A stretch of DNA of 64,000 bases from Bacteroidales bacterium (GTDB taxonomy: Bacteria; Bacteroidota; Bacteroidia; Bacteroidales; Marinilabiliaceae): assembly GCA_024401355.1 (NCBI GenBank), contig JAKSLF010000001.1, positions 1 through 64,000 of the forward strand, read 5' to 3'. How positions within the stretch are numbered: the first letter of the stretch is position 1; each line of letters starts with the position of its first letter. Both the position numbers and the translations under genes were made by a program. The notes beneath the pieces were generated by a model. It had not been told where the DNA came from, searched no databases, and worked only from the letters and a program-made list of their open reading frames with translations. This document shows positions 5,286 through 61,315 of this stretch, piece after piece.

Positions 5286-5371
5286 AAATTTATAGAGGTT
5301 TAATTAATTTTCTAGTTAAGAGTCTTTTTCGATTTGAAAGCAAAAAGGTGTTTTTTCTTTCACTACGAATG

Positions 5372-44313: not shown

Positions 44314-44349
44314 GACGGCACTGTTCTCTACGGTTGCCGTCATTTTTTT
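44314..44349 (+). terminator. Terminator of argH
   Basis: GACGGCA (44314-44320) pairs with TGCCGTC (44335-44341), then ATTTTTTT; overlaps the 3' end of the convergent permease gene. Confidence 0.72.
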
Positions 44350-45134
44350 ATTGTCTTTACTGCAAGCAGCGCTATCGTTAGCTCTACAGTTATTGCTGCT
44401 CCTGCTGGCAAATCACATAAGAATGCTAATGCTAGTCCTCCAATTCCTCCTGCCAACGCTATTATTGCCGATAATATCATCATTTTGCCCATGTTTTTGA
44501 CAAACATGTTTGCTATTGTCTGTGGTATTGTGAAGAGTGATAATACAAGGATTATACCGACCGCTTTTATTGCTAGTACTAATGATATCGCTATAAAAAC
44601 AGATGATGTCCAGCTTATAAATCTTACTTTCCATCTTGTTAGTTCAGCAAACGACGGCGCAAACGCTACGTACATTATCGGTCTGTAGAATATTATCGAC
44701 AATATTGTTGTTATCCCTGCCATTATTCCCATCGATATCACGTCTGTAGTACTTACAGAAAGTATGTCACCAAACATGAATCCCATAAGGTTCGGAGCAT
44801 ATCCTGGCGTCATGAACATGAACAAAATTCCTATTGCCATTCCAAGCGACCACAACATCGCTATTGCGCTATCTTCTCTCACTTTCCCCTTTTTACCCAG
44901 TATTTCTATTCCTAGTGCTGTCAATATTGCAAATACCATAGCTCCACCTATTGGTGACATGCCAAGATAATATGCGATGCCTATTCCTCCAAAGCTTGCG
45001 TGTGTTATTCCTCCCGATACAAATACCATTCGTCTTACAACTATGTACGTACCGATTATTCCCGATATTATCGAAAGGAAAACCATTGACAGTAATGCAT
45101 CTGTCACAAATTCATATTCAAAAATATTGTTCAC
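44340..45134 (-). CDS. Metal ABC transporter permease (ZnuB/MntB family)
   Basis: 264 residues, about eight membrane helices. ABC-3 family motifs: FVSGGITHASFGGIGIAYYLG near the N-terminus and VKAVGIILVLSLFTIP-type LAIKAVGIILVLSLFTIPQTIA. Overlaps the ATPase gene by four bases. Moves zinc, manganese or iron inward; zinc is favoured by the His-rich binding protein. Confidence 0.93.
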   Translation of the reverse strand: MNNIFEYEFVTDALLSMVFLSIISGIIGTYIVVRRMVFVSGGITHASFGGIGIAYYLGMSPIGGAMVFAILTALGIEILGKKGKVREDSAIAMLWSLGMAIGILFMFMTPGYAPNLMGFMFGDILSVSTTDVISMGIMAGITTILSIIFYRPIMYVAFAPSFAELTRWKVRFISWTSSVFIAISLVLAIKAVGIILVLSLFTIPQTIANMFVKNMGKMMILSAIIALAGGIGGLALAFLCDLPAGAAITVELTIALLAVKTIKK

Positions 45135-45883
45135 TGTCGATAATGGTTTATCAGCACTCGGTGTGGAATAGTGCCGTGTGATATTATTTCTATCGGATTC
45201 TTATATATCTTCAGCATGTCGTCTGTTATCTTGTTCGTTGCGTGGTAATGCAAGCTTTTGTTGACGCATGCTATTGTTTTTACGTATGTCGAGATGGTTC
45301 CTATGTCATGTGATACTAGCAGAATGCCCATCTCCTGGGCAAGTTTTGGTAGTAGCTTATACAGATTCGTCTCTGCCACTTTGTCCATGTATGTCACAGG
45401 CTCGTCGAGTATCAGCAGATCTGGTTTGCCCATTATTGCCCTACATAGAAAAACTCTCTGTCGTTGTCCTCCTGAAAGCTCTCCTATCTGACGGTCTTTC
45501 ATATCTGTCAGCTGGGCAAATTCTAGCAGTTCCATCACTCTTTGCTTCGCTTCTTTAGATGGGAAGAGTCTGTTCCCATCTATCTGACCAGATATTATAA
45601 CGTCTTTTACGCTTATTGGGAAGTTTAGGTCTATATCGTTAATCTGTGGCAAATATCCTATTTTCAGGTTCTCCTTTCTCTCTATTTGTCCTCTTGTTGG
45701 TTTTATTGACTCTAGTATTACTTTTATTATTGTCGTTTTACCACCTCCGTTGGGACCTATGAATGCGATTATGTCATCGCGATATATATCTATGCTTACA
45801 CCACTCACTACGATGTTTCCATCATAGCCAGCATCTATGTTTTCAAGGCTTATTAGCTTTTCTCTCTCTCCTCCAGCTGTCAT
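45131..45883 (-). CDS. Metal ABC transporter ATP-binding protein (ZnuC-like)
   Basis: 250 residues. Walker A GPNGGGKTT, signature LSGGQRQRVFLCRA, Walker B LLILDEPVTYMD, switch His in SHDIG. 20 bases after the binding-protein gene. Confidence 0.95.
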   Translation of the reverse strand: MTAGGEREKLISLENIDAGYDGNIVVSGVSIDIYRDDIIAFIGPNGGGKTTIIKVILESIKPTRGQIERKENLKIGYLPQINDIDLNFPISVKDVIISGQIDGNRLFPSKEAKQRVMELLEFAQLTDMKDRQIGELSGGQRQRVFLCRAIMGKPDLLILDEPVTYMDKVAETNLYKLLPKLAQEMGILLVSHDIGTISTYVKTIACVNKSLHYHATNKITDDMLKIYKNPIEIISHGTIPHRVLINHYRQ

Positions 45884-45903
45884 TTTGTTCTCTCTTTATT
45901 CTC

Positions 45904-46803
45904 TTATTCCGTTCTTAGTGCGTTTATTATTGTCTCCATTGTCCCTTTCCAGTCATATCCTTCTGGTGTGAACATTACTACTTTTGCGTTAAGCATCTTA
46001 GATGCCTTTTCTGCTTTCTCTATGTCATATCCATCCTGCACAAACACTACGCCAGCTTTCTTTGCTTTCGCTTTTTCTATTTGTTCCATATATGTCTGTG
46101 GTGTCGGTGCATTGCCGTCTTTCTCTATTTCCATCTGAGTCATATTATAGTCTCTTGCTATATATGTCAACGCCGGATGGTATATCATGAATGCCTTGTC
46201 TCCTTTCTTCTTCTCTTCTGTCAGTTTTCTGTCCAAGTTCTCTATTTCTGTTTCAAGTACATTGAGTGCCGAATCTATTGACTCTTCTCTCTCATTTATT
46301 AGATTCTTAATCTCTTTGTAAATGTTTTCTGCCATTACTTTGGCCTCTTTCGGCGAAAGCCAATAGTGTGGGTCTATTGCGTGAACGTGTCCTTCCTCGT
46401 TAGCTTCGTGGTCGTGGTCTTCGTTCTTGATGAGTTCGATTCCATCGCTGAGGTCTACCCATTTCAAATCCTTGTTGACGCTCATGATTCTCTCCTGCCA
46501 TGTTCTTTCAAAGTCAAGTCCGCCTATGGCAAAGTATGCTTTGGACTTGCTCAGGTCCATCATTTGGCTTGGCCTTGGAGTATAGTCCGAGTGTCCGGCC
46601 GATTGTGGTATCATGATATTGATGTCAACTTTGTTTCCTGCTATTTTCTCAATGAAATATGCCTCTACTGGCAAGCTTACTGTTATTGTTGGCTTAACAT
46701 TGTCCCTCATTGCAGTTTGGCACGACGATATTATTCCGACGGCCATTATTGCTAATGCGATTTCCTTGGCTTTGTTTATTATGTTTCTATTTCTCCCTCT
46801 CAT
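45904..46803 (-). CDS. Zinc-type solute-binding lipoprotein (ZnuA/TroA family)
   Basis: 299 residues from the ATG at 46803, 13 bases past the LytTR stop; an upstream ATG at 46836 would overlap it. Signal ends GIISSC (lipobox). TroA fold with metal His in GHSDYTPRPSQ, a His/Asp-rich loop (NEDHDHEANEEGHVH) followed by DPHYWLSP, and YHPALTYIARDYN. The His-rich loop is typical of zinc-binding members. Confidence 0.93.
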   Translation of the reverse strand: MRGRNRNIINKAKEIALAIMAVGIISSCQTAMRDNVKPTITVSLPVEAYFIEKIAGNKVDINIMIPQSAGHSDYTPRPSQMMDLSKSKAYFAIGGLDFERTWQERIMSVNKDLKWVDLSDGIELIKNEDHDHEANEEGHVHAIDPHYWLSPKEAKVMAENIYKEIKNLINEREESIDSALNVLETEIENLDRKLTEEKKKGDKAFMIYHPALTYIARDYNMTQMEIEKDGNAPTPQTYMEQIEKAKAKKAGVVFVQDGYDIEKAEKASKMLNAKVVMFTPEGYDWKGTMETIINALRTE

Positions 46804-46816
46804 CTTCTCAGTTTGC

Positions 46817-47674
46817 TTAGAGCATTTCATATACATCTTTCACATAGCTCTTTGTCACTGGTATGCTGAGCGGCATTGGCGCATCCAGTTTCACAAGTAG
46901 ACCGTCATTCTTTTTCTCCAGAAGCTTAATGTGTTGTGAGTTTACCATGTATGATTTGTGACAACGTATTATTCCTTGAGGCTTCAGGTTTGCCTCTGCG
47001 TGTTTCATCGTGTTACGTATCAGAATTGACGAGAGCTTTTGTCCCTCGGCGTAATATACTACTATATAATTGTCTGCTCCTTTTATATACATAAGGTCCG
47101 AAAGCTTGACACTGAATTTTATCTCCCCCTTGTTGTCGTAGAAGTTAGCCATCATCAGCGATCCTTTCGTCGTGTCTTTCGACACTTCCATTCCGCCGCT
47201 CTCTATTCTTTGCAGTTTCTTGTTCTTGTCATCCCATGAGAAATAAAGCCAGAGAGCACTATATGGAAGCAGCAATATCCAAGCTGTGTTTTTTAGCGAT
47301 ATGCTTATCATGTCGAGAAGGTCTCTTGAGTCGTTGAATCCAGCCCTCTCAAATATTGTGAACGAAATTGCCATTGCCAATATTTCTACTGCAATCCATA
47401 TAAGATATTGCCAGAGCATCAGTCTGCGACCCTTCGCTCCATAGTTTTTATACATTATCACTCGGCTAATTGCCACGACTGCCATACCTAATAATACCAG
47501 TATGCTCGATAATATGAAGTATCGTAGATCCGTCATATCCGGTACCCATAGTTCCGATCTATATGGCTTAAAGACATTGATGAACACAAGGGAGAATATA
47601 GCCGTGAAGACTATAAGCTTTACTGTGTTGGCTTTCGTCAATAAGTAGTTAGGTATTCTCTTGTTTAGGTCCAT
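46817..47674 (-). CDS. Membrane-bound LytTR transcription regulator
   Basis: 285 residues. Four hydrophobic helices (about 17-35, 50-72, 85-106, 125-148), no receiver domain, then a LytTR DNA-binding domain (about 185-285: VKLSDLMYIKGADNYIVVYY; IIRCHKSYMVNSQHIKLLEKK). First gene of the run LytTR-binding protein-ATPase-permease, and divergent from the SusC operon, whose upstream region carries GTTACAT repeats 22 bases apart, a LytTR-like spacing. It may control either or both. Confidence 0.9.
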   Translation of the reverse strand: MDLNKRIPNYLLTKANTVKLIVFTAIFSLVFINVFKPYRSELWVPDMTDLRYFILSSILVLLGMAVVAISRVIMYKNYGAKGRRLMLWQYLIWIAVEILAMAISFTIFERAGFNDSRDLLDMISISLKNTAWILLLPYSALWLYFSWDDKNKKLQRIESGGMEVSKDTTKGSLMMANFYDNKGEIKFSVKLSDLMYIKGADNYIVVYYAEGQKLSSILIRNTMKHAEANLKPQGIIRCHKSYMVNSQHIKLLEKKNDGLLVKLDAPMPLSIPVTKSYVKDVYEML

Positions 47675-47760: not shown

Positions 47761-47997
47761 ATACTTTTTTGTTTTATATCCTACCTCTTGGCCATTATTT
47801 ACTGATGCCATTATTCCCTATTTTCTCTCTTGTCTTTTTTGCTCAATCCAACCTTGTTCTCCGTTATTGTATTTATACATCATAACTGATGATTTCTTTC
47901 ATTATTTGCTCATTTTGTATATGTCATCTGCCACCTTTTTGCTTCTTGTTATATGTTCTTTTCTTTTAGTTTTTGTCAACATAATTTATCTAATCAT

Positions 47998-48111
47998 GTT
48001 CATGGTGTTACATTAGACCTGCAATTGCGTTACATAATCGCTTAATGACACAACAATGTAAGTATATGTTACATTCTCTTTCGGTAAGGTTAACAAATAT
48101 TAATAAGTTTG
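47998..48111 (+). promoter_or_regulatory. GTTACAT regulatory array and promoter of the second SusCD operon (copy A)
   Basis: GTTCATG at 47998, GTTACAT at 48007-48013, 48029-48035 and 48068-48074, inverted ATGTAA at 48056-48061, then CAAATATTAATAAGTTTG at 48094-48111 containing -7 box TAAGTTTG (48104-48111). No TTG at -33, so activator dependence is likely. The spacings match those at 61010-61123 exactly. Confidence 0.8.
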
Positions 48112-48330
48112 GACCGTGAAATGGTTTATTGAATCGCCATTCCACAAGGAAACAATCAATGTATAACATAAATTTAATGCCTATTTAAAAGAAAAGAGAC
48201 TCAAACTTCTATCGTTTTTAAGCACTTTACCTTATATATATAGGGGTGCAAAAATTTAAAAAAGCAATCTGAACTCGTAGGTTTAGAATCTACTAAAAAA
48301 CAACAATAATTTTAACTTAAACCTTTAACT
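48112..48330 (+). other. Long 5' leader of the second SusC gene
   Basis: About 215 bases between the predicted start and ATG. It holds a possible nine-codon ORF at 48159 and a weak GCAC/GTGC stem near 48223-48250; no known riboswitch recognised. Confidence 0.5.
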
Positions 48331-51300
48331 ATGAAAACAAAGCTTTTGTTTTGTTTGTCGTTTGTCCTCTTCGCTTGCATGACAGCGTTTGGACAGACGA
48401 AGACTGTCAAGGGAACTGTAATCTCAGGCGAGGACAATCTTCCTCTTCCTGGCGTTGCAATCCTTGAGAAAGGAACCACTAATGGTACCGTTACTGATAT
48501 TGATGGCAACTACAGCATCAATGTTAATGAGAACGGAACTATCGTGGCTTCATTTATCGGCTTCACTACTCAGGAAGTAGCAGTAGCAGGCCAGAACACA
48601 ATCAACATCACACTCGAGTCTGACTCTAAGGAGCTCGACGACGTTGTAGTTGTTGGTTATGGTGTTCAGAAGAAGAAACTCGTCACTGGTGCTACCGTAC
48701 AGGTAAAGGGTGACGAAATCGCCAAGTTGAACACAACAAATGCTCTTGGAGCAATGGCATCTTCAACTCCTGGTGTTCAGATCACTCAGTCTTCTTCACA
48801 GCCTGGTAAGGGCTTTAAGGTTAACATCCGTGGTATCGGTACTATCGGTAACTCAGCACCTCTTTATGTAATCGACGGTGTTTCGGGTGGAGACCTCGCA
48901 AGCATCAACCCTAACGATATCGAGTCTATCGACGTTTTGAAGGATGCTGCATCATCAGCTATCTATGGTGCACGTGCTGCCAACGGCGTTATCCTCGTTA
49001 CTACTAAGCAGGGTAAGGCTGGTAAGATTGAACTTACTTACAACGGTTCTTTGGGCTGGTCAAACGCTTACAAGCGTCCACAGCTCCTTGATGCTCAGCA
49101 GTTCATGACAATCATGGATGAGTACAGCTTCAACACAGGTGGTACTAAGCTTGATTTCTCTGCTTACATTCCACAGGAGATTATCGACAAGGTTAATAAT
49201 GATGGTTGGAAGGGTACTGACTGGTGGGGTGCATTCGAGAACAAGAACGCTCTTCAGCAGAACCATTCTGTAACTGTTACTGGTGGTTCAGACAAGTCTA
49301 AGTTCGCTATGTCATACACATATACTGATAATGAAGGTATCATGGGTGCCGACAAGGCTTCTTTCTACAAGCGTCATACTATCCGTATCAACAGCGACCA
49401 CGTATTGTTGAAGGCGAAAGATTTCGATGCTATCACAATCGGTGAGAACATGTCTATCATGTATAACACTAGCCATGACTTGGCTGAGGACGGTATGTAC
49501 TGGAGCTACATCCACAGCTTGCTTCAGACTAACCCACTTGTGCCACAGTTTGATGAGAATGGTGAGAACTATACCTATACTAAGGACGGCGCGGGCTGGA
49601 ACGACTACTGGTTCAACAACCCATGGGAAGGCCTCACAAAGGGTGGCTGGAACTCTATGGCAGAGAGCCGCAACGTCAATGCTAACGCAACTGCTTTCTT
49701 GACAATTCAGCCTATCAAGGGCTTGAAGTTCCGTTCACAGTTCAACTACGCTTGGGGTTCGGGCGCATATCGCGCATACGGTGAGCCACGTTCTCCATCT
49801 TCAGGTTCTGGTACTGTAAGCATTTATAACGTAAGCCAGAGCGCTTGGATGAACACTAACTACTCTCTCGAGAACACTCTTACTTATGATCTTCCTGTTA
49901 TCGCTGGTAACAAGATTAACGTTCTCGTTGGTCAGAGCTTCAACAGCACTTCATGGAGCTTCAACCTCGGTGGTTCTAACAAGGTTGCTGAAGGCGAACA
50001 GCTTGCAACTCTCAAGAACTGGGATTCAGCATGGTTGTCAAACTTCAAGGTAGCCAACGCTACTGATATGTCTCTTACAGGTAAGCCAAACGACGAGGAG
50101 TACCTCGCATCTTGGTTCGGTCGTGTAAACTGGGACTTGAACGAGACTTACATGGCTACAGTTACTGTACGTCGTGATGGTTCTAGTATCTTTGCTGATG
50201 GCAAACGTTGGGGTACATTCCCATCTGTATCTGCAGGTTGGGTGTTGACAAACGAGAGCTTCCTCGAGGGTGCTCAGGGTATCGTTGACTTCTTCAAGAT
50301 CCGTGCATCTTGGGGCCAGAATGGTAACTGCTCTATTTCTAAGTATCAGTACCTCGCTACAATCGCTCAGTCAACTGACGCAGGTGATAACGGCTATAAG
50401 TTCGCTGATGACGTAGTAACATCTACAAGCGGTACTCCAAACACAGGTGCTTATGCAAATATTGTTCCTAACCCAGATGTAACTTGGGAGACTTCTGAGC
50501 AGCTCGACCTCGGTTTCGACGCTCGTTTCATCGACAGCCGTTTGTCTGTGAACTTCGACTGGTATAAGAAGACTACTAAGGACTGGTTGATCACAGGTCC
50601 ACACATCGCTATCCAGGGTACAAGCCCTGCATACATCAACGGTGGTGACGTTGAGAACAAGGGTATTGAAATTGCTATTGGTTGGAACGACCAGATTGGC
50701 AAGGACTTCAAGTACAATGCAAGCGTAAACTTCGCAACTAACAAGAACGAGGTAACACGTATCGCAAACCAGAACGGCTACATCAACGGTTCTAGCTCAA
50801 TCCTCTCACAGGGTACTGACTACATCTACCGTGCTGAGAAGGGCAAGCCTATCGGTTACTTCTATGGCATGTCATACAGCGGTATCTGGCAGAACCAGGC
50901 TGAAATTGATGCAGCTAAGGCAGCTGGTAAGGCAGTTCTCGACGGTGCTCAGCCAGGTGACTGCAAGTGGGATGACTGGAACAACGACGGCCAGATTGTA
51001 TACGCAGACGGTGCAACTAGCGATAAGCATGAGATTGGTAATCCAAACCCAGACGTAACTCTTGGTGTTAACCTCGGTTTCTCTTGGAAGGGTCTTGACT
51101 TCGCTGTAAACGGTGCTGGTGCATTCGGTATGCAGATCATGCGTTCTTACCGTTCATATGGTGACTCATTCTGGCATCAGTATGATACAAGTATCTTGAA
51201 CCGTTGGCATGGTGAGGGCACTTCAAACGACGTGCCAAGAATCTCTGGTACAGGTCACCCTAACACAATCTATGTATCTACTCGTTACATGGAGGATGCA

Positions 51301-51543
51301 GACTACTTCAAGATTAAGGCAGTTACTCTCGGCTATGATTTGAAGCAGCTTTTGACTAAGATGCCACTCCAGCAGCTCCGTTTCTATGTTCAGGCTTCAA
51401 ACCTCAAGACATTCACTGGTTACACAGGTCTTGACCCTGAGGTTGGTTCATCCGGTGGTGCTGATAGCTGGGCATCTGGTATTGACCTTGGTTTGTACCC
51501 ACCTTCACGTACTTGGACTGTTGGTGCAACCATTAAGTTCTAA
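48331..51543 (+). CDS. SusC/RagA-family TonB-dependent transporter
   Basis: 1070 residues. Signal peptide (about 1-21, FGQ), CarboxypepD_reg-like domain (about 23-105, GTVISGEDNLPLPGVAI), SusC TonB box (ELDDVVVVGYGVQKKKLVTGA), plug with VNIRGIGTIGNSAPLYVIDG and VLKDAASSAIYGARAANGVI, and a barrel ending TVGATIKF. Codon bias is strong (GGT, CGT, AAC), so it is probably abundant. First gene of a five-gene plus-strand block. Confidence 0.97.
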   Translation: MKTKLLFCLSFVLFACMTAFGQTKTVKGTVISGEDNLPLPGVAILEKGTTNGTVTDIDGNYSINVNENGTIVASFIGFTTQEVAVAGQNTINITLESDSKELDDVVVVGYGVQKKKLVTGATVQVKGDEIAKLNTTNALGAMASSTPGVQITQSSSQPGKGFKVNIRGIGTIGNSAPLYVIDGVSGGDLASINPNDIESIDVLKDAASSAIYGARAANGVILVTTKQGKAGKIELTYNGSLGWSNAYKRPQLLDAQQFMTIMDEYSFNTGGTKLDFSAYIPQEIIDKVNNDGWKGTDWWGAFENKNALQQNHSVTVTGGSDKSKFAMSYTYTDNEGIMGADKASFYKRHTIRINSDHVLLKAKDFDAITIGENMSIMYNTSHDLAEDGMYWSYIHSLLQTNPLVPQFDENGENYTYTKDGAGWNDYWFNNPWEGLTKGGWNSMAESRNVNANATAFLTIQPIKGLKFRSQFNYAWGSGAYRAYGEPRSPSSGSGTVSIYNVSQSAWMNTNYSLENTLTYDLPVIAGNKINVLVGQSFNSTSWSFNLGGSNKVAEGEQLATLKNWDSAWLSNFKVANATDMSLTGKPNDEEYLASWFGRVNWDLNETYMATVTVRRDGSSIFADGKRWGTFPSVSAGWVLTNESFLEGAQGIVDFFKIRASWGQNGNCSISKYQYLATIAQSTDAGDNGYKFADDVVTSTSGTPNTGAYANIVPNPDVTWETSEQLDLGFDARFIDSRLSVNFDWYKKTTKDWLITGPHIAIQGTSPAYINGGDVENKGIEIAIGWNDQIGKDFKYNASVNFATNKNEVTRIANQNGYINGSSSILSQGTDYIYRAEKGKPIGYFYGMSYSGIWQNQAEIDAAKAAGKAVLDGAQPGDCKWDDWNNDGQIVYADGATSDKHEIGNPNPDVTLGVNLGFSWKGLDFAVNGAGAFGMQIMRSYRSYGDSFWHQYDTSILNRWHGEGTSNDVPRISGTGHPNTIYVSTRYMEDADYFKIKAVTLGYDLKQLLTKMPLQQLRFYVQASNLKTFTGYTGLDPEVGSSGGADSWASGIDLGLYPPSRTWTVGATIKF

Positions 51544-51564: not shown

Positions 51565-53451
51565 ATGAAAAACAAAATATTAACAGCAGCGACTTTGCTT
51601 TCAGCAGTTTCGTTCACTGCTTGTAATGACATGCTGGACACAGATCCACGTGTTACTGAGATGACTCAGGCTACTTTCCCTGGTAAGCCTGCAGACGTTG
51701 AGGCATTGAATGCGGCTACCTACAGTATCATGAATACAATGGGTGGTGGCGACGCAGACACCCAGAACCCATTCTACTGGTGGGAAATCATGTCTGATAA
51801 CTGCTATGGTTCTGGTGGTCTTCAGGACAACAAGGTAAAGGCAATGCATCACCTTGTACAGATGAACGTTGACCAGTATGAGCAGACATTCATCCTTCTC
51901 TATGGTGGTATCTCACGTGCAAACAACCAGATCGAGACAATCGACAACGTTGCTTGGACAGCCGACCAGAAGAAACAGCGTAACCAGCTCCTCGGTGAGG
52001 GTTACTTCATGCGTGGTCTCTACACACTCTGGCTTACTCAGTTGTATGGTGATGTACCTCTGATTACATCAACAACAATCACTGCTGACATGGAGAAGCA
52101 GGTTAGTGCTGAAGATGTTATCTATCCTCAGATTCTTTCTGACTTCATTTCAGGTGTTAACCTCATGAGCGCAGAAAAGAGCAGTGGCCATGCTAACAAG
52201 TTCGTTGCTGAATCATTCATCGGACGTGCTTACATGTTCTGGGCAGGCTTCTACAAGAATGTATCAGAATTGTCTTCTGGTAGCGTACCTGCTATGAGCC
52301 TCGTTGCTCAGGAAGGTTGCGACAAGACTTCTCTTTCTAAGGACGATGTTGTATCTTACATTCAGGACGTTATCGCTAACGGTGGTTACACTCTCTGTAA
52401 GGACTATCGTTCTTTGTGGCAGTATTCAAACAGTTTTGTATGGGATGAGGCTCATGATGGTGAAAATCATGCTTATGATTTCATTGCTGACATGGATCGT
52501 GCTGACTGTTTTGACCAGCCTGGTATGGGCAACGGTAACACTGAGGAAATCTTCCAGATTCAGTTCATGAACGCTTCTAAGTGGGCTATCGGTGGTACTT
52601 ACTCTACTGCACGTATGTACTGTAACTACCTCTCATGCTTCTGGGCTCTCCGTGTTAACGGTACTAACGGTGACCGTGATCACACTTATCCATTTACTCA
52701 GGGCTGGGGCCAGGGTACTCCTTCATGTAACATCTGGGATGACTGGACAATCGCTGAGAATGAAGGTGGCTACAAGGATATCCGTAAGCTAGGTTCTTTG
52801 ATTGATGGTGCTACTGAAAACAAGGAGATTGACTACAACTTCGTAAAGGACTGCTGCGAGGCATCTGGTTTCGGTGTAAAGAAGTACAATGGTGTTACAC
52901 TTGACGCTTTGACAGGTGATAATCCATGGTGGCGTTGTGCTGAAGGCTTCTCTGCAAGTTCACTTGACAACGGTATGCAGGGTGACCACTTCGAGGACTT
53001 CTATCTGATGCGTTATGCTGATGTACTCCTCATGGCTACTGAGCTCACTGGTAATGCTTCATACATGAACCAGGTTCAGAAGCGTGCAGGCGTTCCAGAG
53101 ACAGCTTACTCTTTGAAGGCTGTTCAGGACGAGCGTCGTTGGGAGTTTGCATTCGAAGGTCTTCGTTTCAACGATATGCGTCGTTGGTCAGGCAAGAACG
53201 GTGGCGAGTCATGCTACGCGGCTAAGGCTCTTCAGGCTCAGGCTGGTAAGCAGATCGTTAACAAGGGTGACGTAGCTAACAAGGGTACAATGAAGCATAT
53301 GACATGTTCATGGGCTGAGCGTTATGCTGCAACTGACGGCTTCTTGTCTAAGCCACAAGCTCAGATTACTCTTATGAATGGCAAGCTTGAGCAGAACCCT
53401 GGTTGGGATGCTACTGACCCTAAAACACAGTATGTTGACCTTTACAATTAA
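51565..53451 (+). CDS. SusD/RagB-family lipoprotein
   Basis: 628 residues, slightly long. Lipobox SFTAC (Cys19), then DMLDTDPRVTEMTQATF, the canonical SusD start; TPR helices with LLGEGYFMRGLYTLWLTQLYGDVPLI; C-terminal RRWEFAFEGLRFNDMRRWSG. Partner of the SusC protein 21 bases upstream. Strongly biased codons. Confidence 0.96.
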   Translation: MKNKILTAATLLSAVSFTACNDMLDTDPRVTEMTQATFPGKPADVEALNAATYSIMNTMGGGDADTQNPFYWWEIMSDNCYGSGGLQDNKVKAMHHLVQMNVDQYEQTFILLYGGISRANNQIETIDNVAWTADQKKQRNQLLGEGYFMRGLYTLWLTQLYGDVPLITSTTITADMEKQVSAEDVIYPQILSDFISGVNLMSAEKSSGHANKFVAESFIGRAYMFWAGFYKNVSELSSGSVPAMSLVAQEGCDKTSLSKDDVVSYIQDVIANGGYTLCKDYRSLWQYSNSFVWDEAHDGENHAYDFIADMDRADCFDQPGMGNGNTEEIFQIQFMNASKWAIGGTYSTARMYCNYLSCFWALRVNGTNGDRDHTYPFTQGWGQGTPSCNIWDDWTIAENEGGYKDIRKLGSLIDGATENKEIDYNFVKDCCEASGFGVKKYNGVTLDALTGDNPWWRCAEGFSASSLDNGMQGDHFEDFYLMRYADVLLMATELTGNASYMNQVQKRAGVPETAYSLKAVQDERRWEFAFEGLRFNDMRRWSGKNGGESCYAAKALQAQAGKQIVNKGDVANKGTMKHMTCSWAERYAATDGFLSKPQAQITLMNGKLEQNPGWDATDPKTQYVDLYN

Positions 53452-53472
53452 TCTTATAATTAGCAAAACAAT

Positions 53473-54189
53473 ATGAAAAAGATATTTTTGTTACTTGCTG
53501 CAGCTTTTGCTTTTACTGCTTGCGAACCCGAGCAGGAAGACTTCAGCAATGGCGGTCACATCACAGTGGACCAGCTGGTAGCTAAGACTACTGTTAGCCA
53601 GACTGGCAACGTAGTTAAGTGTGAAACTCTTGCTCCAGTTAATGCTAAATGGAGTATTGCTGGCAAGGAATATTTTAGCAACTATGCTACAAAGAAGTTG
53701 AAGCTTGGTAGCCACACTGCTACTATCACAGCTCTTTGTGCTGACGGTACAGAACTTACACATGAGTTCCCTATTACCGTTACAGAAATCACTGATCCAC
53801 TCGAGAAGTTCTGGATCTATGGTGAGGATCCTGAGGCTCAGCCTGCATTCTCTCCTGCTGCATGGGACGCTGCAGAAATGCGTTTCAGCGACAACGAGGG
53901 TAAGCACTTCCCATACCTTTCAGATGATGTATATTGGGGTTTTAAGACTCTTATCTTCGACATCACTGATGCTACTGACGACTGTAAGGGTCGTATCATG
54001 AATGGCTGGTGGTCTGCTCGCTACGATGATGAGAAGGACGTTCAGTTCACTAACGGTCTCTGGGAGCTCCAGCTCACTGAGGCTATCGCAAAGGACTGCG
54101 CAAGAGGTAACGGTGGTGATGGTAAGGACCTCGACCTTATGGTTACATCTGGTAGCTGTACTATCAACTCTGTTTACTATGAGGAATAA
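53473..54189 (+). CDS. Surface lipoprotein of the second SusCD operon
   Basis: 238 residues. Lipobox FTAC (Cys17), then an Ig-like beta domain (about 28-110, TVSQTGNVVKCETLAPVNAKWSI) and a C-terminal part with FWIYGEDPEAQPAFSPAAWDAAEMRF that resembles a jelly-roll carbohydrate-binding or SusE-like domain. Last gene before a strong terminator. Ligand unknown. Confidence 0.82.
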   Translation: MKKIFLLLAAAFAFTACEPEQEDFSNGGHITVDQLVAKTTVSQTGNVVKCETLAPVNAKWSIAGKEYFSNYATKKLKLGSHTATITALCADGTELTHEFPITVTEITDPLEKFWIYGEDPEAQPAFSPAAWDAAEMRFSDNEGKHFPYLSDDVYWGFKTLIFDITDATDDCKGRIMNGWWSARYDDEKDVQFTNGLWELQLTEAIAKDCARGNGGDGKDLDLMVTSGSCTINSVYYEE

Positions 54190-54215
54190 TATTTCCTTGT
54201 AAGTATAATTACTTG

Positions 54216-54246
54216 GGCTGGCTCTTTTTGAGCCAGCCTTTTTTTA
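54216..54246 (+). terminator. Terminator of the second SusCD operon
   Basis: Perfect 9-bp stem GGCTGGCTC / GAGCCAGCC around TTTTT, followed by eight T. Confidence 0.92.
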
Positions 54247-54342
54247 TTAAAATCCTTTATTGTTGTTCCTCTTGTCAGCTTATTCACCTGTTACGTTTTG
54301 ATATCTCAATTTTATTGCATAACTTGCTTACTCTAAGAGCTC

Positions 54343-54350
54343 TATTTTTG
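54343..54350 (+). promoter_or_regulatory. -7 box for the DUF6057 / propeller gene pair
   Basis: TATTTTTG matches TAnnTTTG, 52 bases before the ATG at 54403. No TTG at the right -33 spacing. Confidence 0.5.
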
Positions 54351-54402
54351 CATGTGATGCTACTGGGCTATAAATAATTGTTTACACTAATTTGACATTA
54401 AA

Positions 54403-56145
54403 ATGAGTATAAAAAATAAAGCCAATGATGTGCTGCTCTATGCGTGTTTATTGACTTTCATATCTTTTGTCGCTGCCATTTTATTTTTCAACCGTGAGGT
54501 TCTCTATACTGCTCACGAACGTTCTGAATATCTATATGGATCACCTTTCTTCCATACTCTTCTTTCAAAACCTTTTGGCTTGATGCAGTATGTCGGTGGT
54601 TGGCTTACACAGTTTTTCTATGTGCCTGCTGTCGGTGGTTCTATTCTTGCCGCTATTTGGGCTTTGATATTCTTTGTAGGCATGAAGGCTTTCAGATTGC
54701 AGGGAAGTGCAGTTGCGCTTATGATACTTCCAGTAGCCTGTCTACTCACTTCGATTGTCGATCTTGGCTATTGGATATATATATTCACTGTCCGTGGATA
54801 CTGGTTCTCTCAGTCTGTGGCATACCTCTTAATGCTTCTGCTTTTGTGGGTCGCTCGTTCTACAACTTCACGCGATTGGCATTTTGTATGGTATCTTATA
54901 GGAATATGCCTTTATCCTGTCCTTGGATGGTTCTCTCTGCTATTTGTGCTTTGTCTTGCTCTGTCAGACAAAATTTCTTGGCGTGAACTTTTAGCTATTG
55001 TCTTCGTCTTCTTTACGGCTCATATCTGTCGTACATTGCTCTATTCCAACTTGAAGATTGACGATGTCGTTATGGCAGGTCTTCCTAAGTTCGAAAACCC
55101 TTCTGACAAGAGTGATTATCTCTCTGCTCCATTCTGGATTTTGGGTGTTGTCTCTATACTAATCTCTTTGTTTGGCCGTCATTTGGCTAAGCGTTTTGTT
55201 CCTATTGTATCTGCTATTTTGGGCATACTCTTCACAGTCTTGTTCATGTATTCCGATCGCAATTATATTGACGAGATGCGTATGGTCCGTTCAGCAGAAA
55301 AAGACAATTGGAAAGAAGTTATTGATATCGTCAGCGAAAATCCTAATCCTACGGTTTCAATGATTATGCTTAAGAATATTGCTTTGATGAATGAAGGCGG
55401 ATTACTCGACCGCTCTTTTAAGATGAACAATATTGACTTCAATATATGCAATCCCGATTCTCTGCATGTTAGTTTTCTCGAAATAGCAGCTCCAGTTGCC
55501 TATTACCACTATGGTATGCTAAATGAGGCTATACGACTCAATTTCGAAAACGCTATACAGGCTGGTTTTTCGCCTATCTATCTCAAGATGCTTTCTCGAT
55601 GTGCTTTGGCTACTGGCGATGCTAAACTCCTGCAGCGGTACACTAATTTGCTTCATCATCACCCATTTTATAGGCATTGGAACCCACTGATGCCTACTCA
55701 TGCTGTATCTGAATTGCGAAATGCTTTCCCCGATGAACTTACTGGTGTTGAGAATAGCGACAGTTATATTGTCAATAGCATAAGTATGTGGAACAAGTCG
55801 GAAAGCAAGGTAGCTTCAGAACAGGCTTTGTTCTATTCTATGATACGTCGTGATTCACGTCGTTTTTGGGCATCTTTGCGCAATTTCGTCAACCTTCACC
55901 AGGGCGAACAATTCCCAGTTCATGCCCAGGAGGCTTATATCATGTATACAGACAAGGCTCCTGAAGCTAAGCGTATGATGCTTCCTGTTGAACAGTCAGT
56001 TCTTGACCGTTATAAATCGTTCTGGACATCTCTCGAGTCGTGTGCCCGCAATGGTTTGAAACCCGATCAGATTGAGGAAGAAATGCGTCCTTCTTTTGGC
56101 GACACTTATTGGTATTATAATATTTTTGGGAAAAGACGTTATTAG
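54403..56145 (+). CDS. DUF6057-like polytopic membrane protein (copy 1)
   Basis: 580 residues. Ten or so hydrophobic helices in residues 1-290, then a soluble helical, TPR-like half (about 300-580). Conserved features shared with the inverted paralogue at 59169-60896: the GG(W/R)(L)TQFF segment near residue 65, and the C-terminus FGDTYWYYNIF. Family function is not established. 34 bases separate it from the propeller gene, and the pair is repeated in inverted order downstream. Confidence 0.82.
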   Translation: MSIKNKANDVLLYACLLTFISFVAAILFFNREVLYTAHERSEYLYGSPFFHTLLSKPFGLMQYVGGWLTQFFYVPAVGGSILAAIWALIFFVGMKAFRLQGSAVALMILPVACLLTSIVDLGYWIYIFTVRGYWFSQSVAYLLMLLLLWVARSTTSRDWHFVWYLIGICLYPVLGWFSLLFVLCLALSDKISWRELLAIVFVFFTAHICRTLLYSNLKIDDVVMAGLPKFENPSDKSDYLSAPFWILGVVSILISLFGRHLAKRFVPIVSAILGILFTVLFMYSDRNYIDEMRMVRSAEKDNWKEVIDIVSENPNPTVSMIMLKNIALMNEGGLLDRSFKMNNIDFNICNPDSLHVSFLEIAAPVAYYHYGMLNEAIRLNFENAIQAGFSPIYLKMLSRCALATGDAKLLQRYTNLLHHHPFYRHWNPLMPTHAVSELRNAFPDELTGVENSDSYIVNSISMWNKSESKVASEQALFYSMIRRDSRRFWASLRNFVNLHQGEQFPVHAQEAYIMYTDKAPEAKRMMLPVEQSVLDRYKSFWTSLESCARNGLKPDQIEEEMRPSFGDTYWYYNIFGKRRY

Positions 56146-56179
56146 CCTGTTGTCCGCTTTTATATTTTAATTGAATTCT

Positions 56180-57679
56180 ATGATTACAATGAAAAGATAT
56201 ATCATCTCTCGCTTACATTTTTGGGCTTTCTCTTTGCTCATACTTTCGTCATGTGTTCATCATCCCGATGTACCATCTTCATCTACTGAGGTAAAGAGTC
56301 TGCCTGCAATCTTCCCAGACTATTGTGATGTTACAGTTCCTTCTAATATTGCACCACTCAATTTCATGCTTCCTGCGAATGAATATAGTGAGTGTGTGGC
56401 CCGGATAACAACTCCTGATGGCAAACAGCAGACATACGGATCTGGTGTTAAAGTTCAGTTCCCTGAATCTGACTGGCACGATATGCTTGATGTATCCAAA
56501 GGTAGCAGTATCAAGGTCGAACTTTGGGGAAAGAAAAAGGACCAATGGCTTTCATTCACCCCTTTTGAGTTTCGTATAGCTGAGCAACCTATTGATGAAT
56601 ACGTCTCCTATCGTCTTATCGAACCATCATACGTGGCATGGACATTCATGGAGATAGCTCAGCGTAATGTTACATCGTTTGAAGAGACTCAGATATTCAA
56701 CAACGAAATCACAAGTAACGACAGACAGAAAGGGCAGTGTGTCAACTGTCATAGCTATCAGAACTACAAGACCGACAACATGCTCTTCCATGTTCGTCTC
56801 TCCAATAGTGGTACTATAATTGTCAATGATGGCAAGATTTCCAAAGTCAATCTAAAACGTGACTATACCATCTCTTCTGGTGTCTATCCTTCATGGCATC
56901 CTACCGAAAAGTTAGTAGCATTCTCTACTGATATTACTCGTCAGGCATTCCACACAGCTCATCCTAACAAGATTGAGGTCTACGATGAGGCTAGTGATGT
57001 TATTCTTTACGATGTAGAGAAGGATTCTGTTAGCGTTGTGTCCAATGACCCTGATCTGCTTGAAGTCTATCCTTCATGGTCGCCCGATGGCAAATATCTC
57101 TACTATTGCAAGACAGTTCCTCTTCCTGAAGAGTTGCGTCATCTTGATATCAGGTCGTTCTATAGTAAGTTGCAGTATAATCTCTATCGCCGTTCATTCG
57201 ATTTGACATCTCATCAGTTCGGCGACGAGGAGTTGGTCTACGATGCTGCTTCTGAAGACAAGAGTGCCACATTGCCTCGTGTTAGTCCAGATGGACGTTA
57301 TCTCCTGTTCGCTCGTGGACAATATGGATGTTTCCATATCAGACATAGTGATGGTGATGTAGCCTGTATGCCGCTTGAGGGCGATGATCGTTCTGAACGT
57401 GATATGACTAATCTTAATAGCGAAGGTTTTGCTGACAGCTATCCGACATGGTCGAGCAATGGTCATTGGATTATGTGCTCAAGCCGTCGTGGTGATAGCA
57501 ACTTCAGTCGTATATACATCTCTTATTTCAACAACGGCAAAGTCGAGAAGGCGTTTATGTTGCCTCAGGAAGACCCAGACCATAATGCATATCGTCTGAA
57601 ATGCTACAATCGTCCGGAGTTCATGGTCGAACCTGTCAAGCATACAGTTGAAGAGTTCAGCAGAGTCTTTGACAAATAA
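56180..57679 (+). CDS. TolB/PD40 beta-propeller lipoprotein with CXXCH motif (copy 1)
   Basis: 499 residues from the ATG at 56180; an ATG at 56189 is also possible. Lipobox LSSC (Cys25). After a ~140-residue beta domain comes GQCVNCHSYQ (C187, C190, H191), the c-type heme motif, followed by propeller blades with repeated YPSWHPTEKLVAFS, YPSWSPDGKYLYY, PRVSPDGRYLLF and YPTWSSNGHWIMC. In this phylum such proteins are sometimes named cytochrome c related; heme binding is unproven. Stops 3 bases short of the convergent paralogue. Confidence 0.85.
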   Translation: MITMKRYIISRLHFWAFSLLILSSCVHHPDVPSSSTEVKSLPAIFPDYCDVTVPSNIAPLNFMLPANEYSECVARITTPDGKQQTYGSGVKVQFPESDWHDMLDVSKGSSIKVELWGKKKDQWLSFTPFEFRIAEQPIDEYVSYRLIEPSYVAWTFMEIAQRNVTSFEETQIFNNEITSNDRQKGQCVNCHSYQNYKTDNMLFHVRLSNSGTIIVNDGKISKVNLKRDYTISSGVYPSWHPTEKLVAFSTDITRQAFHTAHPNKIEVYDEASDVILYDVEKDSVSVVSNDPDLLEVYPSWSPDGKYLYYCKTVPLPEELRHLDIRSFYSKLQYNLYRRSFDLTSHQFGDEELVYDAASEDKSATLPRVSPDGRYLLFARGQYGCFHIRHSDGDVACMPLEGDDRSERDMTNLNSEGFADSYPTWSSNGHWIMCSSRRGDSNFSRIYISYFNNGKVEKAFMLPQEDPDHNAYRLKCYNRPEFMVEPVKHTVEEFSRVFDK

Positions 57680-57682
57680 GAC

Positions 57683-59152
57683 TTACTTTCTTACATCCAT
57701 CTGCACTCGTTGTGGTGATTCTATAGCTTTAACGGCTTCGTGATTGTTATATTCAACAGGACCCGTGATGAATTCTGGTACGTTGTATGAGAAGAATCGT
57801 TTACGGTAGAAATCACGTGGGTTTGACTGTGGAAGCATGAATGGCTTTGTCTGTTCACCATTTTCGTCAATATGCGTGAAATATGGGCGAGTAAATAGTC
57901 CGTCATCTCTTCGAGACGAGAATACCATCCATTTGCTGTTGCTCGACCAGCTATGATATGATTCCGTATCGTTGGTGTTTATTACGTCCATGGCACGTGT
58001 AGAACCATCTTTCAAGTCCATAATATAAAGATCTGCTTCTGGATGCCAGATGCTGAACTGACCATAGTTTGACAACGTGTAGACCAGGTAACGACCATCA
58101 TACGACGGACGTGGGAATGACACGCTTTTGCCTACTGCTGCGGCATTTACCAAAGTATCTATTTTGTCCCCAAATTTGCCGTTTTCAGGGTCGAAAGTTA
58201 TAGAACAGAGATTGTACCGGATGCTGTCAAAATCGTTCGTTTCAATCGGCTTTCCGTCGGCTGCGCAGAAGTATAGTACTTTGCCATCTGCTGAGAATGC
58301 AGGAAAAGTCTCCATAACCTCCTTCTTTTTCAATAGTGGAGTAACAAGCAACTGGTTTGTTTCTGTATCATATACCTGCAGGTCCGATTCGTGGTCATAC
58401 ACTTCGATTCGCTTTCGATCCTGTACGTGAAATACCTGTTGAGTATTGTTCGTACTATATGCAATGTATCGACCCGATGGGTGCCAATATGGATAAACAC
58501 ACGAACCTAATGTCTGTGGCGTAGCGGTGTTGTATGCTTCTATTTTCCCTTTGAGTCTTAATAGTGTGGCACCTTTTTCTCCTCGTATGTGGAGGCTCAT
58601 GTCATTAGGATTGCCCCTGTTGAAACTGTGGCAGTTGACACATCCCTGAAACTCGGTGTTTTCTATCAAAGCATTTTCCTGGCTGTCATACAGATTGCAT
58701 TCATATATGCCTATTTTGCTGTATACTATATATCCAGGCTCAATCAGTCTATATACAATGCCATAGTCTATGCTGTCGCGGCTGACATAGATGTTGAATT
58801 TCTGATATGTCTCCCAGCCTTTTTCATACTTTGCTGAAACTATTACGCCAAGTGAGTCACCTATGCTGTTCGATACTATATCATGCCACTCCTTAGCTCC
58901 TATTCCAGCCGTTTCTTTTCCCTGTGCATGCAATTCAAGTCCGTCTTTGCCTGTTATCACAACATCTATGAGTTCTGCCTTTTCGTCGTCCATGCAGAAA
59001 TCCAGAGGTGCGATGTTGGCTGGTATAGTCACGTCTACGTAGTCAGGATATATTTGTGGTTTTGATGCAATCTGTTTAGCATCTTTCACGCTCTCCTGGC
59101 ATGATATGAAAATCACCGATGCTAGAACGCTTATAATTGTATATCTGTTCAT
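57683..59152 (-). CDS. TolB/PD40 beta-propeller lipoprotein with CXXCH motif (copy 2)
   Basis: 489 residues from the ATG at 59152, which starts a lipoprotein signal (MNRYTIISVLASVIFISC, Cys18); the longer frame overlaps the upstream gene. Same plan as copy 1: IYPDYVDVTIPANIAPLDF, GCVNCHSFN (C171, C174, H175), VYPYWHPSGRYIAYS and later propeller repeats, and QSNPRDFYRKRFFSYNVPEF at the end. Clearly paralogous but diverged. 16 bases after the DUF6057 copy 2 stop. Confidence 0.86.
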   Translation of the reverse strand: MNRYTIISVLASVIFISCQESVKDAKQIASKPQIYPDYVDVTIPANIAPLDFCMDDEKAELIDVVITGKDGLELHAQGKETAGIGAKEWHDIVSNSIGDSLGVIVSAKYEKGWETYQKFNIYVSRDSIDYGIVYRLIEPGYIVYSKIGIYECNLYDSQENALIENTEFQGCVNCHSFNRGNPNDMSLHIRGEKGATLLRLKGKIEAYNTATPQTLGSCVYPYWHPSGRYIAYSTNNTQQVFHVQDRKRIEVYDHESDLQVYDTETNQLLVTPLLKKKEVMETFPAFSADGKVLYFCAADGKPIETNDFDSIRYNLCSITFDPENGKFGDKIDTLVNAAAVGKSVSFPRPSYDGRYLVYTLSNYGQFSIWHPEADLYIMDLKDGSTRAMDVINTNDTESYHSWSSNSKWMVFSSRRDDGLFTRPYFTHIDENGEQTKPFMLPQSNPRDFYRKRFFSYNVPEFITGPVEYNNHEAVKAIESPQRVQMDVRK

Positions 59153-59168
59153 TTTTCTTTTCTCCCGA

Positions 59169-60896
59169 TTAGTGTGTGATGAAATAGTACCAATATGTCT
59201 TGCCGAATTGAGCATACAGAGTCTCCTTGTTCATTGGCATTTTGTTCATGGCTCCAATAAACTGATTCAGCCCCATGATAGTATTCGAGTCTATTCCTTC
59301 TGGAATTTTATCTCCTGCCTTGTGATTCTGGCTCCACCAGAGTCCGTATGCTTGCTGGAACATATATGGCAAATGCTGGTAATCAAAATCAGTCTCCATC
59401 TCAAGATACTTGACAAATGAGTCGAGGTCTTTATTCAAGAGGTAAGCACATCCAAGGTATTCGTAAGCCAGTTGGTTCTTAGTGTTTGCGTTATACTGAC
59501 GGCTCAATAGTTCTGGTATCTCGCTCGATTGGAACATGTAGTCTTCATTAGGCATGAATGAACGTATCCGGCCATATTCCTGATGTTCAGATATAGCCTT
59601 TTCATTATTTAGCAATGGCATTACCTCCTCTGCCCAGTCGCTGTAGAAAATAGTCTTTGACAAAGCTTCGAGATATTTGCGTGCCACCTCATAGTTGCCG
59701 CTTATAAGATTAGTCTCTGCCAGTCGCTTGAAGCATCGTCCGCTCTTTTGGTAGTCAGGAATTGCCTCCTGTGCCTCAAAGACGTAGCGTTGTGCTGTAT
59801 TTATCATGCCTAATTGATAATATACCTCACCTGTTGTCAGCGGACTTACAAAGTCGCGTTCAAAGTCGGGTAGTATGCCAGCAAAGCCGTTCTGGTTGTA
59901 TTCAAACATGTGATTGGCCAGCAGACCTCTCATGCCCAATGCCAAGTTCACAGCTGTGCATGACAAGCTGTTTTTAGGCTTTCTCTCGTTAGCTGTATTT
60001 ATCAGTCGGTTCCATTGTTGATACCTACACATGAAATCGTATGACATGACATCTTCTGAACGCTCATTATATTTGCTCTTGACCGTGTATCCACATAAAA
60101 CGATAGCAACTATCCATAACGCTCCTGTAGTCCATCTGTTGTTGCTGGTGGTTGGCAAGAGTGGTGTGACAATAGCAGCTACGACAACTATCATCAAGAT
60201 AGTTGGATAAGTTGTGATTATTCGATAGTAATGTGGCGAAAGAAAGAGTCGTTCGAGTGGTATGTTGACACAATATTGTGCAAATATAGGCATTACGATT
60301 AAAATGAAAATTGCGGCAGCTCCAAATTTTATATCCTCTTTATCTCGCAAACGTATTGATGATGCCAGATATAGCCCCAATGTGATTATCGCAATTGGAC
60401 CTAATGCCCAGTATAAAATTGGTGCAGAGATAAGGAATACAATTCTTCGCACTACTTTCTGACTAATTGCCGACAATCCCCAATATGCCAACAGCGACAA
60501 GAGCACAGCGACGATTGGTCCGAGCAGTGCGTTTTCATCGCAATAGTATATCCATAGTGTTGCTGCAGGAATCAGACTGGCCGCCTCAAATAATCCTTTT
60601 GGTGTTGTTCTGTATGTCAGTAGGAAAACGCATAATATTAATGTTGCTATAATAGCAGCTCCTGCCCATGCTATCAAGAAAAACTGAGTAAGGAATCGTC
60701 CAGCCAAGTCAGCCAATCCTCCTGGAACCGATAAGATGGAATTGACGTAGTCAGCATCAAATAGGAACAGCTGGTTTTGTTCTTGAAAATGTAGGTGATG
60801 TGGATAGCAAATGCCAAAGAATAAAAGGACGGCTATAAATAAAGTACATGCCATTATTAATGGATAAATCCAAGGCTGTAGTGATGGTTTACTCAT
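59169..60896 (-). CDS. DUF6057-like polytopic membrane protein (copy 2)
   Basis: 575 residues. Membrane half (1-270) with GRFLTQFFLIAWAG, soluble TPR-like half with YQLGMINTAQRYVFEAQEAIPDY and LAYEYLGCAYLLNKDLDSF, and ending FGKTYWYYFITH, matching copy 1. Leads a two-gene operon with the propeller copy 2. Confidence 0.82.
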   Translation of the reverse strand: MSKPSLQPWIYPLIMACTLFIAVLLFFGICYPHHLHFQEQNQLFLFDADYVNSILSVPGGLADLAGRFLTQFFLIAWAGAAIIATLILCVFLLTYRTTPKGLFEAASLIPAATLWIYYCDENALLGPIVAVLLSLLAYWGLSAISQKVVRRIVFLISAPILYWALGPIAIITLGLYLASSIRLRDKEDIKFGAAAIFILIVMPIFAQYCVNIPLERLFLSPHYYRIITTYPTILMIVVVAAIVTPLLPTTSNNRWTTGALWIVAIVLCGYTVKSKYNERSEDVMSYDFMCRYQQWNRLINTANERKPKNSLSCTAVNLALGMRGLLANHMFEYNQNGFAGILPDFERDFVSPLTTGEVYYQLGMINTAQRYVFEAQEAIPDYQKSGRCFKRLAETNLISGNYEVARKYLEALSKTIFYSDWAEEVMPLLNNEKAISEHQEYGRIRSFMPNEDYMFQSSEIPELLSRQYNANTKNQLAYEYLGCAYLLNKDLDSFVKYLEMETDFDYQHLPYMFQQAYGLWWSQNHKAGDKIPEGIDSNTIMGLNQFIGAMNKMPMNKETLYAQFGKTYWYYFITH

Positions 60897-60923: not shown

Positions 60924-61009
60924 GAAAAAAACTCTCTAATAACACCCTTTTCAAGCGAGAATATATCTATATCAGTCACTTGCATCTGTGAATAACACAG
61001 CTCCATAAT

Positions 61010-61123
61010 GTTACTAGTGTTACATCTCTTCATTAATTATGTTACATAGTCTTCAAATGCTACAATCATGTAAATTTGTGTTACATTAACTAATAATAGA
61101 ATAGTCAAATATTAATAAATTTG
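61010..61123 (+). promoter_or_regulatory. GTTACAT regulatory array and promoter (copy B)
   Basis: GTTACTA at 61010, GTTACAT at 61019-61025, 61041-61047 and 61080-61086, inverted ATGTAA at 61068-61073, then CAAATATTAATAAATTTG at 61106-61123 with -7 box TAAATTTG (61116-61123). Distances between consecutive elements are 9, 15, 20, 6 and 19 bases, identical to copy A at 47998-48111, while the intervening bases differ. Confidence 0.8.
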
Positions 61124-61127
61124 AGCA

Positions 61128-61260
61128 ACAATGAAATTAGAGCAATATTTTCAGTTCAGGCTGAAAATTAAAGATATACTTAGTTTTACATTTAGATTGA
61201 TTATTAGTTAAGATTCTATGGATGCAACGAAGTGATTTCGAGTGCATCCAAATTTTTTTT
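61128..61260 (+). ncRNA. Candidate small RNA (or micropeptide mRNA) from promoter copy B
   Basis: Predicted start about 61128. Hairpin 1: TTTTCAG (61148-61154) with CTGAAAA (61161-61167). Terminator: TGGATGCA (61219-61226) with TGCATCCA (61243-61250), inner CGAA/TTCG, then eight T (61253-61260). A 26-codon ORF at 61131-61211 (MKLEQYFQFRLKIKDIL...) begins almost at the predicted start and could be a leaderless micropeptide or chance. No other plus-strand gene lies downstream, so this promoter has no other target. Confidence 0.55.
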
Positions 61261-61315
61261 GGTAGGGCCCGTGTTAAAAAATGATTAAAAATAGCCGGAA
61301 AACGAGTTTGACAAC

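Follow-up and report, generated by a model that had tools for sequence, protein, structure and literature searches.

Two arrays of short repeats, 13 kb apart in a 64,000-nucleotide stretch of a Marinilabiliaceae genome (contig JAKSLF010000001.1, positions 1 to 64,000; the window hereafter), raise the question of which protein binds them and which genes they serve. The explanation that we consider probable is that both arrays are operators of a XynR-like xylan hybrid two-component system (HTCS), which would drive a susC operon from array 1 and a putative small RNA (sRNA) from array 2. XynR itself is reportedly a Prevotella bryantii protein, said to have been described by Miyazaki in 2003. From the observed sequence, geometry, recurrence, and gene context of the arrays, we infer binding, activation, transcription starts, and the sRNA with its role.

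Each array is about 100 bp long, and the order and spacing of the elements are identical in the two (Table 1). The original prediction had described six elements recurring in the same order with the same gaps, at promoters that have no TTG at -33. All of this was confirmed in the sequence, including the -33 position, which was inspected in both arrays and holds no TTG. The genome scan suggested alongside it, for GTTACAT-N15-GTTACAT-N20-ATGTAA-N6-GTTACAT-N19-CAAATATTAATAA, returned two matches in the source genome, an 85% complete assembly of 2,916,331 bases in 69 contigs; the backwards control had none. Depending on base composition, 4e-17 to 4e-15 matches per genome would be expected by chance. 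The two are arrays 1 and 2, the only exact full-pattern copies in this genome. With up to two mismatches, the ATGTAA-bearing pattern was found in one of 61 relatives, namely, the source genome itself, and a plasmid collection searched with 47900-48200 gave no match.

The spacers had been described as diverged, which holds in part. A recent duplication is excluded by the sequence around the arrays, because flank identity (28%) is at the background level. The spacers are nevertheless not fully diverged: 31 of 69 bases are identical, compared to an expected 19.5 +/- 3.6, and this agreement was reached in 0.18% of 20,000 shuffles. The excess likeness may stem from a duplication long ago or from constraint on additional bases. 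GTTACAT occurs 15 times in the window versus 8.7 expected. The 22-bp pair alone is not rare, with 15 matches in the source genome versus 31 in the backwards control at up to two mismatches, and 18 matches in 15 genus genomes versus 19 in the control at up to one mismatch. Only the three-box geometry together with the promoter is distinctive.

Table 1. Features of the two arrays, the genes and transcript behind them, and the candidate regulator
Feature	Position	Strand	Remark
GTT half-site, array 1	47998..48000	+	named in the original prediction; not conserved outside the window copies
Repeat A GTTACAT, array 1	48007..48013	+	
Repeat B GTTACAT, array 1	48029..48035	+	A to B, 22 bp
Inverted ATGTAA, array 1	48056..48061	-	window copies only
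Proximal repeat D GTTACAT, array 1	48068..48074	+	B to D, 39 bp
CAAATATTAATAAGTTTG, array 1	48094..48111	+	includes -7 box TAAGTTTG, 48104-48111
GTT half-site, array 2	61010..61012	+	named in the original prediction
Repeat A GTTACAT, array 2	61019..61025	+	
Repeat B GTTACAT, array 2	61041..61047	+	
Inverted ATGTAA, array 2	61068..61073	-	
Proximal repeat D GTTACAT, array 2	61080..61086	+	
CAAATATTAATAAATTTG, array 2	61106..61123	+	includes -7 box TAAATTTG, 61116-61123
susC-like gene led by array 1	48331..51543	+	
Rest of presumed operon	51565..57679	+	co-transcription presumed
susD	51565-53451	+	
238-aa protein gene	53473-54189	+	
DUF6057 gene	54403-56145	+	
PD40 protein gene	56171-57679	+	
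Putative sRNA	61128..61262	+	predicted ends
26-codon ORF	61131-61211		inside putative sRNA, from about the presumed transcription start
Block TTAGTTTTACATTTAGATTGATT, common to putative sRNAs of window and G005	61180..61202	+	shared block, 26 nt
Stem GGATGCA/TGCATCC, then eight-T run	61220-61226/61243-61249, 61253-61260	+	strand-specific, ~130 nt past array 2
Candidate HTCS of the source genome	C69:61553-65587		full domain set; divergent from GH43-SusC-SusD...GH10-GH97 locus

Compared across species, the sites have fewer than six elements in common, the shared core being GTTACAT-N15-GTTACAT-N31/32-GTWACAT-N29/30-TAnnTTTG. A search of 71 family genomes for the three boxes with up to three mismatches gave 14 sites in 12 genomes, versus 10 control sites. 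Four of the 14 are judged real because of their intergenic place and the -7 box that follows: array 1, array 2, a site on contig C34 of the source genome, and G005:C1:288839, in the congener MAG Horse_feces94 (G005, from horse feces). The other ten were set aside as chance matches on the control count and their appearance. The four sites share A-22-B-39-D-36/37-TAnnTTTG. Both window copies and the G005 site have A/B/D/-7 box offsets of 0/22/61/97; the C34 site has 0/22/61/98, with ATTACAT at D. C34 carries the third exact 22-bp pair of the source genome, ahead of another susC-susD pair. Of the six-element architecture, A, B, D, and the -7 box recur, but the other two full-length sites, those of C34 and G005, lack both the GTT half-site and the ATGTAA-N6 element. 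A weaker inverted ATGnnAC, starting 9 bases past repeat B, is present in both window copies and C34; the G005 site retains its T, G, and final C alone. Searching the source genome for B, D, and the -7 box with up to three mismatches recovered exactly array 1, array 2, and the C34 site (control, 0). Among 84,980 GTDB species, a set that may leave out the source genome, the core with its -7 box matched a single stretch, G005:C1:288839.

Array 1 has a neighboring gene for a LytTR protein (46817-47674, minus strand), divergent from susC and about 330 bp away, and LytTR sites are direct repeats about 21 to 22 bp apart. Binding of the arrays by this protein is nonetheless highly improbable. The LytTR site consensus, repeats of [TA][AC][CA]GTTN[AG][TG], has no match at the array repeats, and the gene is conserved with znu genes in 13 of 13 congener loci examined, none of which contains the exact GTTACAT pair. 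The region 44340-47674 encodes the membrane LytTR protein, followed by the znu genes. In 14 of 15 genus genomes, a LytTR relative of nearly full length is present; znuA stands beside it in all 13 fetched congener loci, whereas znuB and znuC do so in 12, a contig end cutting off the remaining locus.

A profile was built from the four sites, which have no regulator gene beside them, and searched in the 15 genus genomes, 14 of them scored on only 150 first-look candidates. The profile uses the arrays alone because the MAFFT alignment split the -7 boxes. Beyond the training sites, the top matches were G002:C101:17489 (E value, 4.5e-6), G005:C1:261175 (0.0011), G003:C14:60663 (0.0014), and G009:C35:2576 (0.0019); the match at 0.0020 is the C34 site on the opposite strand. 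The G002, G005, and G003 sites each occupy the divergent region between an HTCS (AraC-type) gene and a GH43-SusC-SusD locus, the G002 genes being assigned from order, size, and the shared motif, without a Pfam call. The G009 site has LytB, DUF2807, and peptidase genes as neighbors, with no HTCS or glycan gene near. Weaker matches precede a GH5 gene in G002 (contig C34, 0.0034; without a -7 box by the rule given below), MFS, GH10, GH43, aminotransferase, and GH67 genes in G008 (C3, 0.0039), and, in the source genome, a small ORF with GH31 and arabinofuranosidase genes (C23, 0.026) and a GH97 gene (C69, 0.033).

Closely similar array geometry recurs in the source genome, G002, G003, and G005, with a two-repeat version in G008. 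Offsets are 0/22/60/96 in G002 (C101) and G003 (C14), where the -7 box has one mismatch, whereas G005:C1:261175 has boxes at 0/21, TACATTTG at 94, and, by eye, GTTTTTT at the D position. Two-repeat versions, with the second repeat 36 to 38 bp ahead of the -7 box, are located before GH97 on C69 (one mismatch), before the small ORF-GH31-arabinofuranosidase group on C23, and before MFS-GH10-GH43-GH67 in G008. This similar geometry at independent promoters supports the proposal that the spacing is kept for a protein-DNA complex, with an activator replacing the -33 box, and that the sites form a regulon. A rule comprising GTWAC(A/C)T, 28 to 31 bases, TAnnTTTG with up to one mismatch, and a GTWAC upstream at the observed distances was scanned over 712,852 bases (the window and 37 fetched loci). 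It found eight sites (arrays 1 and 2, the G005:C1:288839 site, G002, G003, G008, C69-GH97, and C23) and missed C34 and the main promoters of G005 and C69. Controls gave two sites in the backwards sequence and 0, 0, 0, 0, 0, and 1 in six Markov shuffles. As the six sites beyond the window lie in motif-fetched loci, only their hemicellulose context is independent; moreover, orientation is left unfixed by the rule, the GTWAC pattern reading identically on both strands.

The direct repeats are 22 bp apart in both arrays and 21 to 22 bp apart at the other sites. This fits the HTCS motifs predicted as direct repeats averaging 21 bp apart in the available part of PMC3878776. The sites resemble AraC-type HTCS operators of xylan loci, so a regulator of a new class is not required to explain them. 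SusR-type repeats, spaced 67 or 77 bp center to center, were not encountered among the array distances of 22, 39, and 61 bp.

In G002, G003, and G005, an HTCS gene and susC/susD adjoin the site; in the source genome, the main promoter of C69 bears weak copies, and no HTCS gene lies by the window arrays. An AraC-type or HTCS gene beside the arrays was considered and rejected: of 11 PF12833 matches in this genome, the sole one on contig C1 lies at 222 kb, and C34 has none. The best candidate regulator would be the HTCS on C69 (Table 1). Together with the HTCS of G002, G003, and G005, it forms a set with 47 to 79% mutual identity and 27 to 34% identity to six other HTCS, orthologues having been examined in 4 of the 15 genus genomes. 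Its locus contains GH43, SusC-like (recognized through its carboxypeptidase-like domain), SusD, further SusD, GH10, GH97, and BD-FAE-type esterase genes. The chief weakness of this assignment is twofold. The C69 main promoter has only weak copies (GATACAA-N14-GTTACGT-N8-AGGTAAC, with TAATTTTG at 95 and no clear D), and the C69 DNA-binding domain, 49 to 54% identical to those of G005, G003, and G002, matches the C12 HTCS equally well (51%); the three congener domains share 69 to 87% identity. Both points, together with the 85% completeness of the genome, because of which a further HTCS may be missing, fit binding by another activator, either an absent HTCS paralogue or a member of another family. 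We regard this as unlikely, given GTAACAT-N14-GTAACAT before the C69 GH97 gene and the sites carried by the orthologous HTCS loci of three congeners.

A further candidate is Cur, the BT4338-type CRP regulator, which activates the sRNA MasB and carbohydrate genes and whose fusA2 site contains GTTACAT (PMC10994844, PMC6989115, as far as their available text extends). In the portions of the Bacteroides literature covered, GTTACAT appears once as a Cur site and once as a shuffled control probe. Cur sites are, however, palindromes of the form TATGTTnTAnAACATA, from which the arrays differ at best by 5 to 6 of 14 positions and random window pieces mostly by 5 to 7, so that Cur is a scarcely plausible binder.

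With the C69-type HTCS as the preferred regulator, the two arrays can be considered in turn. Array 1 leads the susC-like gene and the presumed operon. The orthologous SusCD-DUF6057 block is present in five congeners (G005, G008, G009, G010, and G013). No GTTACAT and no GTWAC pair at 21 to 22 bp was found upstream of susC in G005, G009, G010, and G013, the four read; the G008 region is cut by a contig end. Since the array is missing in four of five congeners and array 2 faces a putative sRNA, reading the pair as a signature of the SusCD block finds no support. Ahead of susC, G010 and G013 (L112 and L108) have another stretch in common, TTTGCATCCGATAA, so the promoter of the SusCD operon may have changed more than once.

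Over 48331-48720, the window susC is mosaic-like, its start being closest to the C34 paralogue and the remainder to the congener orthologues. At the protein level, the signal peptide and carboxypeptidase-like domain resemble the C34 SusC and the remainder resembles the congener orthologues; 35 of 37 positions surrounding the start codon are identical to C34. The simplest account is that recombination within susC probably carried array 1 along, capturing the promoter and 5' end. Further along, two DUF6057-PD40 pairs (54403-60896) face each other, an arrangement that is convergent in G005 and tandem in G013, G008, and G009. DUF6057 is multicopy in the genus, and no paper on it was found in the literature collection searched.

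According to the gene map, array 2 leads no gene of the SusCD block. Downstream of it on the plus strand, a hairpin is reached before any gene; the genes on either side are encoded on the minus strand, and the next of them (61607-63874) encodes an MscS-like protein. The 138-nt stretch of the putative sRNA folds at -27.9 kcal/mol (z, -2.27), and 2 of 200 shuffles fold as well. An automatic terminator scan downstream of array 2 flagged none, since this hairpin falls outside the loop and T-run limits of the scan. The G005 array begins 7 bp past a GH43 gene, where the gene run beside the HTCS ends farthest from it, and is located before glutamine synthetase. It has a flagged terminator within ~75 nt, and the stretch folds with a z of -4.64 (0 of 200 shuffles). 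The block common to the two putative sRNAs, TTrGTTTTACATT..TAG.ATTGATT, scores 29 versus 16.6 +/- 2.7, a score reached by 2 of 500 shuffles.

Searches with Rfam families found only tRNA in the window, the putative sRNA scoring below every gathering score. In 12 of 15 genus genomes, BLAST of 61000-61275 gave matches with E values of 1 or less; five loci inspected as possible homologues (L148, L137, L150, L139, and L144) were not judged related. In 393 order genomes, a sample without G005, the shared-block pattern occurred in the source genome only. Such a transcript, found nowhere else by either search and followed by no flagged terminator, would also suit a relic promoter left after rearrangement or a promoter driving the 26-codon ORF inside it. 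This alternative is possible but doubtful, as the three boxes and -7 box of array 2 are intact and, in G005, a flagged terminator and the shared block come after the same array. By eye, the G005 transcript has no matching ATG. An RNA function of 61128-61262 is preferred over a small protein on these sequence features. Also in G005, a divergent GntR-like frame (by eye; L107, 3415-4115) precedes the DUF6057 orthologue of 59169-60896, in the place that array 2 holds in the source genome.

Possible targets of the putative sRNA were examined with RNAduplex against 38 regions (34 window genes, three C34 starts, and one UTR piece). The lowest energy, -35.8 at znuA, was reached by the minima of 3 of 25 shuffles. 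The lowest z value (-5.7) belonged to susC 2025-5285; 1 of 150 sRNA shuffles attained it, and none of 100 target shuffles did. Having been picked as the best of 38, this gene is not claimed as a target. The pairing of its start region (5246-5355, minus strand) with the putative sRNA is unusually good and includes UUAGUUAAGA with UCUUAACUAG. For the start region of the array 1 susC gene, 7 of 150 sRNA shuffles and 5 of 100 target shuffles reached the observed value, and none of the 38 regions is put forward as a target.

In the proposed mechanism, the activated HTCS would bind repeats A and B, two helix turns apart, and would also occupy proximal repeat D, close to the position of a would-be -33 box. 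The bound protein would then recruit RNA polymerase to a promoter having a -7 box only. Array 1 would place the SusCD-DUF6057-PD40 operon under a xylan sensor, probably after promoter capture by recombination in susC, and array 2 would yield a small RNA of ~130 nt, possibly tuning transporter mRNAs. The anonymous motif thereby becomes a testable regulon in one uncultured gut species, for which an operator and a regulator gene are predicted and six promoters are candidates (array 1, array 2, C34 susC, C69 main promoter, C69 GH97, and C23). If this is right, the reach of the HTCS extends past the locus it belongs to and takes in a small RNA and the DUF6057 operon, and recombination inside susC is a route of regulon rewiring. 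More tentatively, the HTCS might directly switch on a dedicated sRNA and transporter operons whose promoters were captured by susC recombination. If true, one polysaccharide signal would turn on the locus dedicated to it and also adjust other SusC transporters post-transcriptionally, and the three-box operator would move as a cassette among susC genes.

Similar to the operators of Bacteroides PUL HTCS in the available part of PMC3878776, the sites are direct repeats 21 to 22 bp apart, lie upstream of susCD and glycoside hydrolase genes, and adjoin HTCS genes in three congeners. Unlike those operators, the arrays add, at a set distance, a third copy near the promoter, and their targets, among them a putative sRNA, lie elsewhere than the HTCS locus. 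Remote control has a parallel in Bacteroides xylanisolvens, where a mutant indicates that a xylan HTCS affects a remote locus (PMC4855328). PUL 43 of that species is comparable by locus type, a xylan-type locus with an HTCS, and controls remote GH67, GH10, and transporter genes, in contrast to the SusCD-DUF6057 operon and putative sRNA that would be the remote targets here. The accessible portion of that paper gave no operator sequence for the PUL 43 HTCS. Neither an HTCS-driven sRNA nor a GTTACAT HTCS operator was met in the available parts of the literature consulted (PMC10766802, PMC12125979, PMC11253607, PMC4666351, and others). Carbohydrate-linked small RNAs are represented by GibS/FopS and MasB of Bacteroides thetaiotaomicron, of which the FopS RNAs repress susC translation (PMC11697453, PMC10994844, in their available text). 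By its role, the putative sRNA of array 2 is likened to these, as it would be tied to carbohydrate control; however, the promoters of GibS/FopS and MasB are canonical, PM2, or Cur activated (PMC11697453, PMC10994844), whereas the putative sRNA described here stands behind an HTCS-type operator.
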